This document shows, piece after piece, positions 35,841 to 43,546 of a stretch of DNA of 64,000 bases. The notes beneath the pieces are model-generated. The model saw only the letters and a program-made list of their open reading frames with translations. It had not been told where the DNA came from and did no database searches. Position 1 is the stretch's first letter. Every line of letters starts with the position of its first letter. A program made the position numbers and the translations under genes. This DNA is from Candidatus Sulfotelmatobacter sp. (GTDB taxonomy: Bacteria; Vulcanimicrobiota; Vulcanimicrobiia; Vulcanimicrobiales; Vulcanimicrobiaceae): positions 62,001-126,000 of the forward strand of contig DATJRY010000011.1 in the NCBI GenBank assembly GCA_035504415.1, given 5' to 3'.

Positions 35841-36221
35841 TCATTTCTTAAACGGATGGATCAGGAAGTATGCGATGGCGAGCGGCAGCGCCAGAACGAC
35901 AAGAGCGCCGAGCCCGCGGATGAGCGACCACTCGAGCATCGCGAGGACGCCGTAGCTTTCGCCGGTGACGCCGAGGATAACGGCCGTACTCGCGAGCGAG
36001 CACGCAGCGTACGCGATGATGCCGCGGACGACGCCGACGCTGGCGATGTAGGCGAGGACGATCGCAATCAGAGACGGCCCGAGCTGTTCCACGAACCACA
36101 ATAGACCGAAATCCCCCCTCTCCAACACAGCCTCGGCCTCGCTTGCGATCGCCGTGAAAGCCGCGACGATGAAGACGATGAAGACGATGGAAACGGACTT
36201 ACGGTTCACGCGTACGATCAT
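35841..36221 (-). CDS. Membrane protein coupled to the methionine gamma-lyase-family gene
   Basis: A 126-aa protein with about four membrane helices (VSIVFIVFIVAAFTAI; LIAIVLAYIASVGVVRGIIAY; CSLASTAVILGVTG; LGALVVLALPLAIAYFLI). No family recognised. The ATG at 36221 overlaps the stop of the upstream gene (ATGA), so the two are probably made together; this is the main support that the gene is real. Confidence 0.65.
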   Translation of the reverse strand: MIVRVNRKSVSIVFIVFIVAAFTAIASEAEAVLERGDFGLLWFVEQLGPSLIAIVLAYIASVGVVRGIIAYAACSLASTAVILGVTGESYGVLAMLEWSLIRGLGALVVLALPLAIAYFLIHPFKK

Positions 36222-37468
36222 TCGAAGCGGCAGACCGCCTGGGCGGCCATGAGTGCGCCGAGGGCGGTGTGCTCGGCGGCCAGGCCGCCTTGGAGGTAGA
36301 CCTCATATGGTGGACGGAGCGGGGCGTCGCACGAGAGCTCGATCGTTGCGCCGCTGACGAACGAACCGCTCGACATGATGACGGGGTCGACGTAGCCGGG
36401 CACGGGGCCGGGTTCGGGTGCGAAGCGCGCGTTGATCGGCATCGCTTTTTGCAGGCCGCGCGCGAACGCGATCAGGCGCTCGGGCGTGCCGAGGCGGATG
36501 GCTTGGACGATATCGGTGCGGGCCTCGCCAGGAAGCGGGTCGACATCGACTCCTAGCTCCGCGAACAGGGCGGCGGCGAAGTCCAGCCCGCGCAGCGTCT
36601 CCGCGACGACCAGCGGCGCGTAGAACAATCCTTGCACGAGCGCGCGGCCGAAGCCCAGCGTCGGCCCAAGGCCGGCGCCGATGCCGGGGGCGAAGACGCG
36701 CGTCGCGATCTTTTCGATCGCGTCGGCGCGGCCCGCGAGATAGCCGCCGGCGGGTGCGAGGCCGCCACCGAGGTTCTTGATCAGCGAGCCGGCGATGACG
36801 TCGGCGCCGACCTCGAGCGGCTCGCGCTCTTCGACCAGCTCCCCGTAGCAGTTGTCGACGAACACCATCGCCGGTGCATGCGCGGCGCGCACGACCTCGA
36901 CGATTCGCGCGATCGCGTCGATCGTCAGCGAACGACGTGCGGCGTAGCCCCGCGAACGCTGCACGAAGACAACCGCCGGCCGCTGCGTGCGCGCGGCCTC
37001 GGCGAGGGCCGTGAGATCGGTGTCGCCTTCGGGCGTGCGCGCGACCTCGGCATAGCGCACACCGCGCGATGCGAGCGAGTACGGTGCGTCCGCGATCGCG
37101 TAGCGCAGCGTATCGTACGGCGCGCCGTTGGCCGCCAGCAGCGTTTCGCCTGACGGCACCAGGGCGTCGAGGCCGGCCACGATCGCGTGCGTTCCGCTCA
37201 CGATCGAGAGTCGCGCCAACACGCGCTCCGCGCCGAACAACCGGGCTAGGAGAGACTCGTACCGTTGGCGCGCGGCGTCGTCGTAGCCGTAGCCGGTCGT
37301 GCCGGCGAGGTCGCTCTCGGCGATCCCCTCGTCGAGGAACGCGCGCATCACGCGCGTGCGCACGCGCGCCGCGCGCGGTTCGCGGCGTTCGAGCCACGGT
37401 GCGGCGGCCTCCGCGGCGGTGCGCACGCGCGGATCGACGGTCAGGCCGTCCAGCAGCGCGTCGATCAT
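36218..37468 (-). CDS. Methionine gamma-lyase-family PLP protein (aluminium-resistance family)
   Basis: A 416-aa PLP enzyme of the Alum_res / YnbB group related to cystathionine and methionine gamma-lyases. Features: GTTGYGYDDAARQRYESLLARLFGAE, SGTHAIVAGLDALV, VFVQRSRGYAARRSLTI, AMVFVDNCYGELVEEREPLEVGADVIAGSLIKNLGGG with the PLP lysine, and PVIMSSGSFVSGATIELSCD. The biochemical role is not settled for the family. It is coupled to the PTS EIIC gene upstream (ATGA) and to the membrane protein downstream (ATGA). Confidence 0.9.
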   Translation of the reverse strand: MIDALLDGLTVDPRVRTAAEAAAPWLERREPRAARVRTRVMRAFLDEGIAESDLAGTTGYGYDDAARQRYESLLARLFGAERVLARLSIVSGTHAIVAGLDALVPSGETLLAANGAPYDTLRYAIADAPYSLASRGVRYAEVARTPEGDTDLTALAEAARTQRPAVVFVQRSRGYAARRSLTIDAIARIVEVVRAAHAPAMVFVDNCYGELVEEREPLEVGADVIAGSLIKNLGGGLAPAGGYLAGRADAIEKIATRVFAPGIGAGLGPTLGFGRALVQGLFYAPLVVAETLRGLDFAAALFAELGVDVDPLPGEARTDIVQAIRLGTPERLIAFARGLQKAMPINARFAPEPGPVPGYVDPVIMSSGSFVSGATIELSCDAPLRPPYEVYLQGGLAAEHTALGALMAAQAVCRFE

Positions 37469-38712
37469 GCGAGCTCCGCCTGCGCGCGCTCGTAGACGCG
37501 CACGAACGGTTGCCAGATCGCGCCGGCGATCACCAGGTTCGCCACCGCGAGCGCCACGGCGCGGCCGTCGAGCGTCGCCAGCCCGACGTTGAACAGCACC
37601 GGCACCGTCGATGGGATGTAGAAGATCGGCCGCCCGACCCAGCCCAGCGCAACGGCCGTGTACGTGATCGCCGCCAGCACGACCGGCGCGAGCACGAACG
37701 GCACCGCCAGGACCGGATTGTAGATCAGCGGCAACCCGAAGATGACCGGTTCGTTGACGTTGAGCAGCGACGGCACGACGGTCGCGTAGGCGAACTTGCG
37801 CAGCCGCGGGACCCGCGAGCGCAACAGCAGCAGCACCAGCGGCAGCGTCGCGCCGACCCCGCCGGGGAAGATGAATAGGAACGTCGAGACCACGACGATG
37901 TGCGGGAGCGGCTCGTGGTGCGCGTAGGCGGCCGTGTTCGCGAACTGCAGACTGGTGTACGCCGGCAGCACCAGCGCCGCCATCAGCGCCGGGCCGTGGA
38001 TGCCGACCAGCCACAAGACCGACTCGATCGCCGCGAGCGCGGCCAGCGCGACAAAGCCGTCGCCCAGCGTCGCCAGCGGCGCCAACGCTCGCGCGAGCGC
38101 GCCCGCGACGGAGACGTGTAGCGCGAACAGCACGCCGAACCCCGTCAGCGCACCGAGCGCGCCGACCAACGTGCCGACCGGCGGACCGAAGCGCTCACGC
38201 CCGTAGTGCAGCGCCGTGGCCGTCGCCAGACAGACGACGATGGCCGTGAACAATCCGCTGGCGCCGAGCGTGCGCGCGAAGTCGTCGAAGGAGCCGAGCG
38301 CGGCGCGCGGCAACGAGAGCGCGAAGGCGATCAGCGTCGTCGCGACCAGCGGGATCAGCGGCAACCCGGTCCGCCGCGCGAGCCGCACCGAGAGCACCAG
38401 CACCGTCGCGACCGAGGCGATGGCGAACGCGGGTGCGATGCCGCTCAGCAGCCGGCGCGGAACGAGGTTCCAGGCCTGCGGCGGCGCCAGGGCCAGCTGG
38501 GCGAGCAACGCGACGACCGCGACGGCGAAGGCCACCGGCAGGGTCTCGCGCAGCGCCAGCACGGCCGGCGCTTGCGCGAAGCGCTGGGCGTAGGGCGCGA
38601 CCGCGCGCTCCAGGCGCGCGACGACGCCGTCGCCGGCCGGGAACGCGAGGCTGCGTTCCGGCGGGTCAGAGTCTTCGGATGACCGCCTCGACGCGACCGA
38701 CGATGGTGACAT
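37465..38712 (-). CDS. PTS EIIC permease, cellobiose/lactose type, without EIIA or EIIB
   Basis: A 415-aa polytopic protein with ~10 membrane helices. The signature LLNVNEPVIFGLPLIYNPVLAVPF is the EIIC substrate-site motif of the lactose/cellobiose PTS family (NEP-IFGxPI). GIHGPALMAAL is the conserved helix-loop. No EIIA, EIIB, EI or HPr is nearby, so phosphotransfer is uncertain and it may work as a non-PTS permease. ATG 38712 lies within lexA (47-base overlap). Confidence 0.85.
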   Translation of the reverse strand: MSPSSVASRRSSEDSDPPERSLAFPAGDGVVARLERAVAPYAQRFAQAPAVLALRETLPVAFAVAVVALLAQLALAPPQAWNLVPRRLLSGIAPAFAIASVATVLVLSVRLARRTGLPLIPLVATTLIAFALSLPRAALGSFDDFARTLGASGLFTAIVVCLATATALHYGRERFGPPVGTLVGALGALTGFGVLFALHVSVAGALARALAPLATLGDGFVALAALAAIESVLWLVGIHGPALMAALVLPAYTSLQFANTAAYAHHEPLPHIVVVSTFLFIFPGGVGATLPLVLLLLRSRVPRLRKFAYATVVPSLLNVNEPVIFGLPLIYNPVLAVPFVLAPVVLAAITYTAVALGWVGRPIFYIPSTVPVLFNVGLATLDGRAVALAVANLVIAGAIWQPFVRVYERAQAELA

Positions 38713-39280
38713 CGTCGGCGTAGATTGGCGCCATCGCCGCGTTCTCCGGCTGGAGCCGGAACCGGCCGTCCTCGCGGTAGAAGCGCTTGACGGTCGCCTC
38801 GCCGTCGATCATCGCGACGACGATCTCGCCGTTGTGCGCCGTCGGCTGCGGCTCGACCACGATCAGGTCGCCGTCCAGGATCGCGGCCTCGATCATCGAG
38901 TCGCCCTTGACCCGCAGCATGAAGCCGCCCTTACGCGGCGCCCAATCGGCCGGCAGCACGAAGTTGTCCTCGAGGTTCTCGGCGGCCGTGATCGGTACGC
39001 CGGCGGCCACGCGGCCGACGATCGGCAGCGTCACCGACGGCACCATGGGCGGCTCGTCGCCCGTGCGCGGCGCCACGAGCGCGCGCGGCTTGGTGGGATC
39101 GCGCTTGAGCAGCCCGCGCCGCTCGAGCGTCTTGAGGTGCGATTGCACCGTCGAGGACGAGGAGAGCCCGACCCGCTCTCCGATCTCGCGCACCGACGGT
39201 GGGTAGCCCCGCTCGGCCGTGAAGGAACGGATCACCTCGAGGATGCGCTGCTGTTTCTCCGTCGTGGCCCGCTCGGCCAT
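38666..39280 (-). CDS. lexA: SOS repressor LexA
   Basis: A 204-aa LexA. The winged-helix domain has PPSVREIGERVGLSSSSTVQSHLKTLERRGLL. The self-cleavage site is Ala93-Gly94 (RVAAGVP). Catalytic Ser128 (GDSM) and Lys165 (ATVKRF) form the dyad of the S24 domain. Length and spacing are normal. It represses SOS genes and probably itself: a LexA box overlaps its -35 at 39398-39403. The EIIC gene begins inside its 3' end. Confidence 0.97.
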   Translation of the reverse strand: MAERATTEKQQRILEVIRSFTAERGYPPSVREIGERVGLSSSSTVQSHLKTLERRGLLKRDPTKPRALVAPRTGDEPPMVPSVTLPIVGRVAAGVPITAAENLEDNFVLPADWAPRKGGFMLRVKGDSMIEAAILDGDLIVVEPQPTAHNGEIVVAMIDGEATVKRFYREDGRFRLQPENAAMAPIYADDVTIVGRVEAVIRRL

Positions 39281-39373
39281 CCCGACCTCCTCATGCAGAA
39301 TGCCACCCAGTAGGCATAGCGCTCTGCGACGCTGCCATCGGCGGCCACACCCGTGACCGTCGCCATTGCCGCG

Positions 39374-39403
39374 ATCCTACCATAGGTACGGCCATGGAAG
39401 CAA
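39374..39403 (-). promoter_or_regulatory. lexA promoter
   Basis: On the minus strand TTGCTT (39403-39398) and TAGGAT (39379-39374) with an 18-base spacer. The -10 is 93 bases upstream of the lexA ATG. The -35 shares bases 39401-39403 with the LexA box at 39401-39414. Confidence 0.65.
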
Positions 39404-39414
39404 ACATACGTTCG
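39401..39414. promoter_or_regulatory. LexA box 1
   Basis: CAAACATACGTTCG: one mismatch from the Gram-positive-type LexA site CGAAC-N4-GTTCG. It overlaps the -35 of the lexA promoter. Confidence 0.75.
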
Positions 39415-39422
39415 AAATACTC

Positions 39423-39452
39423 TTGACGGAAGGTCCCTCGTCTTGGTACCAT
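39423..39452 (+). promoter_or_regulatory. Promoter of the LysM gene
   Basis: TTGACG (39423-39428) and TACCAT (39447-39452) with an 18-base spacer. The start point expected near 39459 touches LexA box 2. Confidence 0.55.
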
Positions 39453-39460
39453 ATGGGGGA

Positions 39461-39474
39461 CGAACGAACGTTCG
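39461..39474. promoter_or_regulatory. LexA box 2
   Basis: CGAACGAACGTTCG matches the palindromic consensus CGAAC-N4-GTTCG exactly. It lies just downstream of the LysM-gene -10, where bound LexA would block transcription. Confidence 0.85.
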
Positions 39475-39507
39475 CCGCTATATCTAGGGATTGGAGCGAA
39501 GCTGACG

Positions 39508-39792
39508 ATGCGCGTGACCACTCGACGGAAGCCGACCCTGATGCCGCTGGTCGCGCTGGCCGCACTCGGCCTCTCGGTGACGCTCCCGGTCCTCTCGACC
39601 TCCGTCCACGCCGCTTCGCCCGTCGCGTACACGAACGTGACGGTCCGCCCCGGCGACACGGTCTGGTCGCTCGCCGAGCGCCGCACGGCTGCAGGCGGCG
39701 ACGTGCAGAGCACCGTCGACGCGATCCTGACTGCGAACCACCTCGGCGCCGCGAACCTGAGCGTCGGCCAGCACCTGCGGGTCCCGCAGTAG
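39508..39792 (+). CDS. YneA-like LysM cell-division suppressor (SOS-regulated)
   Basis: A 94-aa protein: a membrane/signal segment at ~12-34 (LMPLVALAALGLSVTLPVL), a short linker, and one LysM domain at ~43-92 (NVTVRPGDTVWSLAERR, then VDAILTANHLGAANLSVGQHLRVP). This is the build of Bacillus YneA and of mycobacterial Rv2719c, which are SOS-induced, divergent from or beside lexA and block division or act on the wall. The promoter and LexA boxes between it and lexA support the same role. It ends at a strong terminator. Confidence 0.85.
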   Translation: MRVTTRRKPTLMPLVALAALGLSVTLPVLSTSVHAASPVAYTNVTVRPGDTVWSLAERRTAAGGDVQSTVDAILTANHLGAANLSVGQHLRVPQ

Positions 39793-39818
39793 ACTCTGGC
39801 CCGGCGCCAAGCCGGACG

Positions 39819-39844
39819 AGCCCCGCGATATCGCGGGGCTTTTT
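39819..39844 (+). terminator. Intrinsic terminator after the LysM gene
   Basis: A 10-bp perfect stem (39819-39828 with 39831-39840) around TA, followed by TTTTC. It lies 26 bases past the stop. Confidence 0.85.
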
Positions 39845-39875
39845 CATGTCCACATGCGCCCCGCGTGTCGCGGGC

Positions 39876-39934: not shown

Positions 39935-42900
39935 TCAGACCTTGACCCGCGCCTCGAAGTACATGGTGAACGGGAAGCCCGTCAACGGGAACCCGCCGAA
40001 CGACGGGGCGTACGGGTACTTCAACAGCGGCTGAATCACGTCGCCGGGGTTGTAGTTGTTCCCGATCGGCTGGATCGCGCCGCCACCGACGACGCCATAG
40101 CCACAGGCACCGGCGACCGCCCACGGCACCGACGACCCACCGAAGCAGTGGGTGTAGATGTTCGCGAACGTCCCCACGAGCGTCACGCGCGGCGAGACGT
40201 CGTAGCTGGCCTGCAGGTTGAGGCTGACGTAGTTGGGGTTGACGTACGACCCGATCCCGTCGAACACGCCGGTGTACGTATCCGGGATCGGCACCGTGAA
40301 CGTGCTGCCACACGTCGTGACGTCGTAGCGGGTCGTTCCGGGGAGCGCGCCCGTGCACGTGTCAGGCGCGACGCCTGACTCCGTCAGCGGCGCTCCGTAC
40401 CGCTCGCCACCGACGAACTGCATCGCCGGGGTCAACGCGAGCCGATTGTGCTTGTACTGCACCATCAACGTCGCCACGTATGGAGCCCCGTACGCGTCGT
40501 ACGACGACCCGATACCACCCGGGAAGATGTCGAAGGTCGGGAAGTCCGCGTTGTCGTTGATCAGCGACTGCACCGGGCTGTTCCAGTACGGGTTCGCGAC
40601 CGAACCCGTTGGACATGCGCCGCCCGCTCCGGCCGCCACGCCGACTCCAGCAAGGTAGCACGGGTACGCCACGGAGGTACCGGCGCCGCCATCGGTCAGA
40701 CCGCCGGCGCACTTCGGCGACGTCGGATTGGCCTGGCAGAACGAAGTGTAGATGTTGTAGTTCTTGATGTTGGCGTTGAGCTGCGAGAGGATCGTGCCCG
40801 CACCGTTCGGCAGCTCACCGTACTGGATGTAGCTGTTGGTGTAGGTGAAGCTCAGCCGCCCGGCCCAACCGTTCCGCGCGAAATCGCCCTTGTCGATTTC
40901 GAGCTCGATCCCGTCCGACGTCTGATGACCGACGTTCAGACCGGAGACGAAGCCCTGCTTCTGGTTCAGGAAGAAATCCTGAATCTGGTTCTGGGTGCTG
41001 CGGTAGAACGGTGAGAACTTCAACGACCAGCCGGTGCTGCCGAACTGGTGCTCGATCGAACCGTCGATGTTGTTCGAGACTTCCGGCTGCACCGGGTGAT
41101 CCGGCGTGTCGAAACCGAGCGTGTTGAAGCCGTAGACGTTGTACAGCGAGTTCGGCGCGTCCGGCTGCAGGAAGTTGTACTGCTCGAACGCCGTGTTCGG
41201 CGCCTGAGCGTACCGCCCATAGCTGACACGCAGAACCGTGAGGGGATCGAGCGTGTACGTCGCCCCGATGCGTGGCTGGAGCTCGTTGTACGAGGCCGTC
41301 GACGCCGCCGAGGCGGTGAAGTTGGCGGGTACACTTCCGGCCGGACACGCCCCACCGGCGACCGCCCGCTGAACGAGCTGGTTACCCGGCGTCGTCACGC
41401 AATACGACTCGTTGAACGCGTTGTAGAACAACGTGCGCGCGCCGGACCCGAGCGTCGACGGGAGATCGAACGTGAAGTCGTCGTAGCGCAAGCCGAGGTT
41501 GATGTTCAGCCGCGAGGTCGGCGTCCAGGTGTCCGTGATCGAGAACGCGCTGAACTTCGGCACGACGGTGTTGTAGGTTGCCGTCGGCCCACCGGCCACG
41601 ACGACGTATTGGCACGGACCCGTGCCGCACGTCCCGGTCGCCGGCGTCACGGTCCCGCCTTCGGCGTCACCGATGGTGAACGCGTTGAACGCGGGCACGC
41701 CGCCGACGACGTTGCCGGCACCGAAGTTGCAGCCCACGTAGGCAACACCGCCGGCGCCGTAGCAGGTCCCGTTATACGGGTTGCTGCCGTTGACCATATA
41801 GCCGGCATACGTGCCGGGTTGATTGGCGTAGAACGAGTTGTTGTCGCGGACCGACGTCGCGGTCGTGTAGTTGCCCTGTACCGTCAACAGGTGCTGCGAG
41901 TTGAGCTGATCGGAGAACTCGAGGCTCAGACCACGGGTGTGGCTGCTCAGCTCGTAGTCCGGCGACGCGACCCCGAGGTAGTCGTCGTACGTCGTGTCCG
42001 GCCCGTTCTCGAACCAGTGCGAGTAGTACGTGTAGCCGTACACGCGCAAGAACGCGCTGGTGCCGAAGTTGTGCTGGTACTGGACTTTGACGATCGACTG
42101 ATCGTTGTCCAGCGTGTCGGACTCGTTCGGCGGAATGTTCGAGAACTCGTCGCGACCCTGCGGCGAGGACGGGAAGAGGTACTGAGACGCGCCGCCGCCG
42201 GTGTACGTCTGCGGGAGGACCGTCCCGTACGGGATCAGCATCTGCTGCGCGTCGATGAACACCGGCGGGATGCCGATGTCGGTGAGGTAGTTCGTACCGC
42301 CCAGATCGTCGGGGGCGTCGTAGAACGTGCTCAGCAGGTGGCTGTTGTCGTACAGCACCTGGACGTCGTCCTTGTTGCCGTCCTTCTGCGGGATCCCGAA
42401 GTGGAAGTTCAGGACCGCGTCACGCTGCAGCTGTTCCTTCTGCGCGTAGCCGTTGAATGGCCCGAGGACGTACGCCGGGGTCGTGCCGCCGTTCGTGTAG
42501 TCGGCGCCCCCGGGCCCGTTGCACGTCGCCGCGTAGAAGTAGCCGGCCGACCCGGGCGCCTGGCACGGGGCGAGCTCGGGGCCGTAGTTTTGGCTGAGTC
42601 CCGCGCCGTTGAACGGGTCGACGTAGCGGAAGGTCTGGTCGTAGCCGCCGATGCCGCCGTAGTACGAGAACGTACGCGACGGGTTGACGCCGCCCGTCTC
42701 GAAGGCGAGGCGGTTGTACAGGGTCGGCGTGCCGATCGCCAGGTCGAGCGACTTGTACGGCGGCGCCGTACCGGTGCGGATGACTTGGTTGATGTAGCCC
42801 GAGAGCGAGTCGCCTTCCGAGTTGGCCGGCGGCGCGCCCGTATAGACCTGGACTTCTTGCTGGCCGAGCGAGGACAGCGAGGTCGACGGATAGTTGTCGA

Positions 42901-43546
42901 ACGAGCGGTTGATCGGAACGCCGTCGAACTCGTAGCCGATCTGGTCGTAGTCGCCGCCGCGGATGCTGAGCGACGCTCCGGCACCGATGTAACCGTTCTG
43001 GTTGGGCGCGACGAACACGCCCGGAACGGTCGAGATGGCCGACCAAGCGCTGTTCAGCGTGCCGCCGCCGTTGACGCCCGACGCCTTGTCTTGCAGCGTC
43101 GAGTTGATCGAGTACACGTCTGCCGTCGTACCGGGCTTGACCAGCGCGGTCGAGGAGCGAGAGGTGACGGAACCGATCGTCTTCAGCTTAAGTGGCTGAC
43201 CGAGCGTGAGCGAGATGGTCTGGTCCGCTTGGACCGTGATCCCACTTTGGACCACCTGGTCGCGCGAGGACGTCGCCTCGACGCTGACCGCGTACGTGTC
43301 CGGTGCGAGCGAGAGGAACACGAAGCGTCCCCCCGCGTCGGTCGTCGTGGTCGAGCTCTGCGACGGGCTCACCGCGGTGACGCGTGCGCCGGCGATGGCG
43401 CTTTTGGTGACCGGGTCCTGCACGGTCCCCGAGATCGTCCCTGTCGTACCTGCCAGAACGCTTGCTGTTCCCTGGAGGACGAACGAGACACCCACGAGGA
43501 GGGCGAGGAGCGCCCGCTTCACCCGATTGGGATAAGCCATAGGCAC
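39935..43546 (-). CDS. TonB-dependent receptor with N-terminal carboxypeptidase-regulatory-like domain (1)
   Basis: A 1203-aa outer-membrane protein. Signal peptide at ~8-33 (ALLALLVGVSFVLQGTASVLA). A CarboxypepD-reg-like beta-sandwich at ~35-115 (GTISGTVQDPVTKSAIAGARV). A plug at ~150-270 with SLSIRGGDYDQIGYEFDGVPINRS and SLGQQEVQVYTG. Then a large beta-barrel ending MYFEARVKV. It resembles the SusC/Oar-like TBDR group, probably importing a large or bound substrate with TonB energy. Sixteen cysteines, mostly in loop-like pairs, are unusual. GTG 43546 or ATG 43540 starts it. It is the second of two tandem paralogues. Confidence 0.9.
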   Translation of the reverse strand: MPMAYPNRVKRALLALLVGVSFVLQGTASVLAGTTGTISGTVQDPVTKSAIAGARVTAVSPSQSSTTTTDAGGRFVFLSLAPDTYAVSVEATSSRDQVVQSGITVQADQTISLTLGQPLKLKTIGSVTSRSSTALVKPGTTADVYSINSTLQDKASGVNGGGTLNSAWSAISTVPGVFVAPNQNGYIGAGASLSIRGGDYDQIGYEFDGVPINRSFDNYPSTSLSSLGQQEVQVYTGAPPANSEGDSLSGYINQVIRTGTAPPYKSLDLAIGTPTLYNRLAFETGGVNPSRTFSYYGGIGGYDQTFRYVDPFNGAGLSQNYGPELAPCQAPGSAGYFYAATCNGPGGADYTNGGTTPAYVLGPFNGYAQKEQLQRDAVLNFHFGIPQKDGNKDDVQVLYDNSHLLSTFYDAPDDLGGTNYLTDIGIPPVFIDAQQMLIPYGTVLPQTYTGGGASQYLFPSSPQGRDEFSNIPPNESDTLDNDQSIVKVQYQHNFGTSAFLRVYGYTYYSHWFENGPDTTYDDYLGVASPDYELSSHTRGLSLEFSDQLNSQHLLTVQGNYTTATSVRDNNSFYANQPGTYAGYMVNGSNPYNGTCYGAGGVAYVGCNFGAGNVVGGVPAFNAFTIGDAEGGTVTPATGTCGTGPCQYVVVAGGPTATYNTVVPKFSAFSITDTWTPTSRLNINLGLRYDDFTFDLPSTLGSGARTLFYNAFNESYCVTTPGNQLVQRAVAGGACPAGSVPANFTASAASTASYNELQPRIGATYTLDPLTVLRVSYGRYAQAPNTAFEQYNFLQPDAPNSLYNVYGFNTLGFDTPDHPVQPEVSNNIDGSIEHQFGSTGWSLKFSPFYRSTQNQIQDFFLNQKQGFVSGLNVGHQTSDGIELEIDKGDFARNGWAGRLSFTYTNSYIQYGELPNGAGTILSQLNANIKNYNIYTSFCQANPTSPKCAGGLTDGGAGTSVAYPCYLAGVGVAAGAGGACPTGSVANPYWNSPVQSLINDNADFPTFDIFPGGIGSSYDAYGAPYVATLMVQYKHNRLALTPAMQFVGGERYGAPLTESGVAPDTCTGALPGTTRYDVTTCGSTFTVPIPDTYTGVFDGIGSYVNPNYVSLNLQASYDVSPRVTLVGTFANIYTHCFGGSSVPWAVAGACGYGVVGGGAIQPIGNNYNPGDVIQPLLKYPYAPSFGGFPLTGFPFTMYFEARVKV

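Follow-up and report, generated by a model that had tools for sequence, protein, structure and literature searches.

A LexA-boxed lexA-LysM gene pair as a candidate SOS division checkpoint in outer-membrane-bearing Eremiobacteria

Introduction

Can a bacterium with two membranes halt its division after DNA damage by means of a LysM protein made under LexA control? LexA-linked LysM division inhibitors have been described as a Gram-positive feature, and the characterised Gram-positive division inhibitors are one-helix proteins encoded next to lexA, several of them with a LysM domain (PMC6851548). The question is raised by a locus in the window, the 64,000-nucleotide stretch of Candidatus Sulfotelmatobacter sp. 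DNA analysed here. The original prediction, made from the letters of this stretch, saw two LexA boxes between lexA and a divergent LysM gene, likened the arrangement to lexA-yneA of Bacillus and lexA-Rv2719c of mycobacteria, and proposed that SOS arrest by a LysM protein is older or wider than the Gram-positive groups.

Results and Discussion

The lexA locus and its operators

The coordinates and letters of the locus bear out the predicted gene pair (Table 1): lexA and a small gene for a LysM protein predicted to sit in the membrane; the two diverge from a gap of 227 bp. LexA reaches 220.6 bits with TIGR00498 (cut-off 110.95) and has in Pfam both its DNA-binding and its S24 protease domain; the LysM domain of its neighbour scores 40.9 bits in Pfam against a cut-off of 20.9. 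Because a terminator-like hairpin follows it, the LysM gene appears to be monocistronic. On the other side, downstream of lexA (36218-38712, reverse strand), are found a PTS EIIC-like membrane protein and a methionine gamma-lyase family gene.

Table 1. Features of the lexA-LysM region, with positions in the window
Feature	Position	Strand	Basis or remark
lexA, SOS repressor, 204 aa	38666..39280	-	TIGR00498; Pfam LexA_DNA_bind, Peptidase_S24
Candidate lexA -10, TATGGT	39379..39384	-	Motif recurs here in the class alignment; putative assignment
LexA box 1, CAAACATACGTTCG	39401..39414	.	One mismatch to the strict palindrome CGAAC-N4-GTTCG
LysM gene promoter, TTGACG-18-TACCAT	39423..39452	+	Promoter scan; conserved in relatives
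LexA box 2, CGAACGAACGTTCG	39461..39474	.	Exact palindrome; covers the expected LysM transcript start
Small LysM protein, 94 aa, candidate SOS-induced division inhibitor	39508..39792	+	Pfam LysM
Terminator-like hairpin 3' of the LysM gene	39818..39841	+	LysM gene appears monocistronic

Both LexA boxes, the exact one and the one with a single mismatch, were confirmed. They flank the -35 and -10 of the LysM gene, whose promoter is the single promoter-like match in 39250-39860 (mean of 0.1 in shuffles). For the lexA promoter, a conserved -10-like motif guided the placement, made by eye, and box 1 covers its expected -35. The layout fits the claim that each box blocks one promoter, with the exact box at the LysM start region and the other at the -35 of this putative lexA promoter.

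Conservation across the class Eremiobacteria

The LysM gene is present in 51 of 60 genomes (our own genome counted), which rules out a spurious reading frame. Among the 53 class loci examined, lexA lies divergently next door in 51; one exception lies at the end of its contig, the other is a second copy that has no lexA beside it. This second copy (L075/L120, G013:C42), which also has no LexA box at up to one mismatch, is apparently a paralogue freed from SOS control. Box 1 reads CAAAC-N4-GTTCG in all 51 divergent pairs, and in 50 of them a partner box is found 56-63 bp off, with the LysM -35 and -10 in between; in base-shuffled intergenic DNA, a box fell at that distance from a random anchor in 1 of 2550 trials. 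The 51 loci share ancestry and are not independent, although the families have diverged widely, with LysM identities as low as about 35%. Eleven loci (L034, L035, L036, L038, L040, L041, L043, L048, L049, L050 and L056) carry an additional LexA box ca. 23-25 bp 5' of the LysM start.

One might argue that the second box serves the autoregulation of lexA only, and that a housekeeping gene for the LysM protein has stayed next door by chance, since both genes share one intergenic region and boxes alone cannot tell their target. Against this, the exact box overlaps the start region that the conserved LysM promoter would be expected to use, some relatives have the third box just before the LysM gene, and the pair persists across phyla (see below); we regard this explanation as very improbable.

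The SOS regulon of the genome

The box pattern, CGAACRNNNGTTYG, is matched 43 times in the 4.17 Mb genome, compared to 3 times for the reversed control pattern; this control and the class-wide footprint rule out that the boxes arise by chance. Sites are found shortly 5' of recA, imuA, imuB, dnaE2, an AlkB-type oxygenase and a radical SAM protein, as well as of a class II ribonucleotide reductase (nrdJ) and an Lhr-type helicase. The names imuA, imuB and dnaE2 are assigned here to RecA-like, Y-polymerase-like and DNA polymerase III alpha-like genes clustered on contig C11. Some further matches fall within genes and are probably due to chance. Because the same box precedes recA, imuA, imuB, dnaE2 and the others, it is, judged by these sites, the SOS operator of this genome, with a regulon typical for LexA. 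The box type is that of Bacillus and Actinobacteria. LexA control of the lexA-LysM pair is predicted with near certainty, since throughout the class both boxes are retained on either side of a conserved -35 and -10, and the same box stands before SOS genes.

Two sets of sites merit mention in their own right. At nrdJ (L013, G000:C10:57013) the box falls on, or just ahead of, the start of a ribonucleotide reductase whose frame appears to enter an intein (CVTGDTMVATADG); SOS control of nrdJ is likely. Strict boxes also precede two members of a small unknown protein family (L009 and L010, G000:C6:160927 and G000:C7:360), both near contig ends and the latter without a Pfam match.

The LysM protein

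The 94-residue product starts with a basic N-terminus and a single hydrophobic helix, which a short linker joins to the LysM domain (Pfam, residues 45-93). The structure model gives a helix at 13-30 followed by the LysM fold, with a pLDDT of about 90 over the LysM part and lower values for the helix. A single transmembrane helix at the N-terminus and a single LysM domain at the C-terminus make up the design of YneA as well; membrane insertion is predicted from the hydrophobic stretch of ca. 20-23 residues. Within families, conservation of the helix equals or exceeds that of the LysM domain (61.6% versus 54.0% in family f1; 68.5% versus 60.4% in family f3) and its region holds the invariant residues L11, P13 and P27, which suggests that it has a specific partner and is not merely a signal peptide. 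As the helix sequence is unlike those in other phyla, its docking site could be a different one.

In the family of the window protein the helix ends in V/L-H/Y-A-A (V-H-A-A in the window protein itself), where signal peptidase might cut. The N-terminal segment could accordingly be a signal peptide that is cleaved off to leave a soluble LysM protein in the periplasm, as the V-H-A-A behind the hydrophobic stretch would allow. Yet the stretch of some 20-23 residues is modelled, at modest confidence, as one helix, the segment is more conserved than expected of a signal peptide, and the sister family f3 is mostly without the motif; a soluble product therefore seems rather improbable to us.

The best named NCBIfam match is YneA (NF010723, E=1.7e-11), aligned across both the helix and the LysM domain. 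The score of 43.9 bits lies below the curated cut-off of 60 bits, and for this reason the protein is not filed as YneA. None of the 60 genomes has a protein above this cut-off (the best reaches 59.3 bits), though the model picks up the gene in almost all genomes of the class. Lower-ranking NCBIfam matches are to hydrolases of the wall or to proteins that regulate them.

These weaker matches, and the fact that LysM domains mostly occur in proteins of that kind, bring up a second possibility: an SOS-induced factor that works on the wall without blocking septation itself, for instance by recruiting or tuning peptidoglycan hydrolases or by protecting the wall while damage lasts. Rv2719c, described as a cell wall hydrolase (PMC6851548), would be a precedent. 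The 94 residues of helix and LysM leave no room for a separate catalytic domain, YneA is the best named match, and the synteny with lexA points to division inhibitors, so that we consider a wall factor unlikely.

Comparison with known systems

YneA of Bacillus subtilis (NF010723) shares with the window protein a divergent lexA neighbour, SOS boxes, one N-terminal helix, one C-terminal LysM domain and a size of ca. 90-100 residues. The window protein differs by its subthreshold score, its diderm host, and a helix with two invariant prolines and a sequence of its own. Rv2719c (ChiZ) of Mycobacterium tuberculosis is likewise lexA-adjacent, SOS-controlled and made of one helix plus LysM (PMC6851548), a likeness drawn from its description; unlike the window protein it has a reported wall hydrolase activity and resides in a mycobacterial envelope. 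SosA of Staphylococcus and DivS of Corynebacterium are lexA-adjacent, SOS-controlled one-helix division inhibitors too (PMC6851548), but both are without a LysM domain. SulA of Escherichia coli is the example of an SOS-induced division block in a diderm, but it is an unrelated, cytoplasmic FtsZ inhibitor. The predicted likeness to lexA-yneA and lexA-Rv2719c thus holds for the arrangement: the LysM gene is lexA-adjacent, divergent and LexA-boxed, as are the genes of the Gram-positive SOS division inhibitors. A literature search of incomplete coverage found no paper joining Eremiobacterota with LexA. The SOS unit, real and well conserved by all the genome comparisons above, has within that coverage not been described before in these lineages.

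Two-membrane hosts

That the host is a diderm, as originally claimed, is supported by Omp85, found in our own genome and in Eremiobacterota genomes, and by outer-membrane receptors, one of which, a TonB-dependent receptor gene, lies next door in the window at 39935-43546. Vulcanimicrobium alpinus, a cultured member of the phylum, has in electron microscopy an outer membrane with LPS and a thin peptidoglycan, and grows as rods or filaments of 1.5-92 µm (PMC9758169).

The pair also occurs elsewhere. An alignment of six LysM proteins, with lexA left out of the query, was run against 84,980 species genomes. This gave 80 loci, 52 of them outside Eremiobacterota. In 46 of these 52 lexA is adjacent (45 divergent, one co-directional), whereas a random gene would seldom have lexA within 4 kb; the loci were picked by LysM likeness and include many close relatives (e.g. 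Microbacterium), so that the counts are not independent. The outside carriers of the pair belong to Actinomycetota (including Coriobacteria), Bacillota and Dormibacterota, plus one Chloroflexi genome. A spacing of 56-62 bp between two boxes is common to freshwater Actinobacteria and Dormibacterota. Two loci need comment: a contig labelled Stenotrophomonas maltophilia (L164) carries a Microbacterium-like lexA-LysM pair and is, by this likeness, probably contamination, and the Armatimonadota match (L154) was rejected as a lexA pair because its LysM gene adjoins penicillin-binding-protein-like genes and not lexA.

When other pair-bearing genomes were tested for Omp85, it was present in three Bacillota genomes. 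In one Bacillota order, represented mostly by metagenome-assembled genomes, Omp85 is found in 12 of 12 genomes and the divergent lexA-LysM pair in 10, five of which have the two-box spacing. A pattern this consistent in 12 genomes argues against contamination. In one of the genomes (G151), the Omp85 gene adjoins TamB-like and OmpH-like frames, as read from the sequences. Since this order combines Omp85 with the pair, the phylum of the window is, going by these markers, not the sole diderm carrier.

Age and origin of the pair

The proposal that SOS arrest by a LysM protein is "older or wider" than the Gram-positive groups holds for the gene pair in its second part: the pair is wider, being class-wide in Eremiobacteria and present in the Omp85-bearing Bacillota order. 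Greater age does not follow. A profile search found no LysM gene in 20 lexA regions from the phylum's other classes, on which ground phylum-wide inheritance was rejected. Several sister-class lexA regions, unlike those of the window's class, use TGAAC-N4-GTTCA; in five of them (L087, L089, L090, L092 and L094), one or two such palindromes stand before lexA. In the unrooted LexA tree the class forms one clade (100/99), apart from the main sister-class LexA type; its closest neighbours are Dormibacterota/Chloroflexota and a single Coriobacterial LexA (88/94, not starred). The pair may have come by horizontal transfer, or by ancestral inheritance with loss or replacement in the sister classes; the tree is compatible with both histories. 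A bolder scenario is that the divergent unit, its promoter bracketed by boxes ca. 60 bp apart, was already at work in an outer-membrane-bearing Terrabacteria ancestor as an ancient alternative to SulA and was passed to the Gram-positive groups upon loss of the outer membrane; this we hold to be conceivable, but doubtful.

Proposed mechanism

The LysM protein likely acts on division in the manner of YneA, by analogy, and the locus as a whole is probably the SOS checkpoint module of a diderm in which the LysM protein halts septation. LexA bound to the two boxes would repress both lexA and the divergent gene of a small inner-membrane protein. Upon DNA damage, active RecA would bring about LexA self-cleavage and the LysM protein would be made. 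Its same design of helix and LysM as in B. subtilis YneA suggests a periplasmic brake. In YneA, the helix binds TM7 of the septal polymerase FtsW, and the LysM domain must bind peptidoglycan to block septal synthesis (PMC13396833). By analogy, the N-terminal helix would serve as the inner-membrane anchor and probably dock on the divisome; three SEDS-family polymerase genes are present in the genome, and its FtsW candidate lies at G000:C12:93670-94731. The periplasmic LysM domain would bind nascent septal peptidoglycan, and septum synthesis would be stopped until repair is done and LexA is back. Even related proteins may act in different ways, as Rv2719c is reported to be a wall hydrolase (PMC6851548).

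As the pair and its operator layout occur in two lineages that carry outer-membrane markers, neither a thick wall nor a single membrane would be a requirement for this checkpoint, and diderms without SulA gain a candidate brake. The question of its ancestry becomes testable, and the cultured V. alpinus puts experiments within reach.
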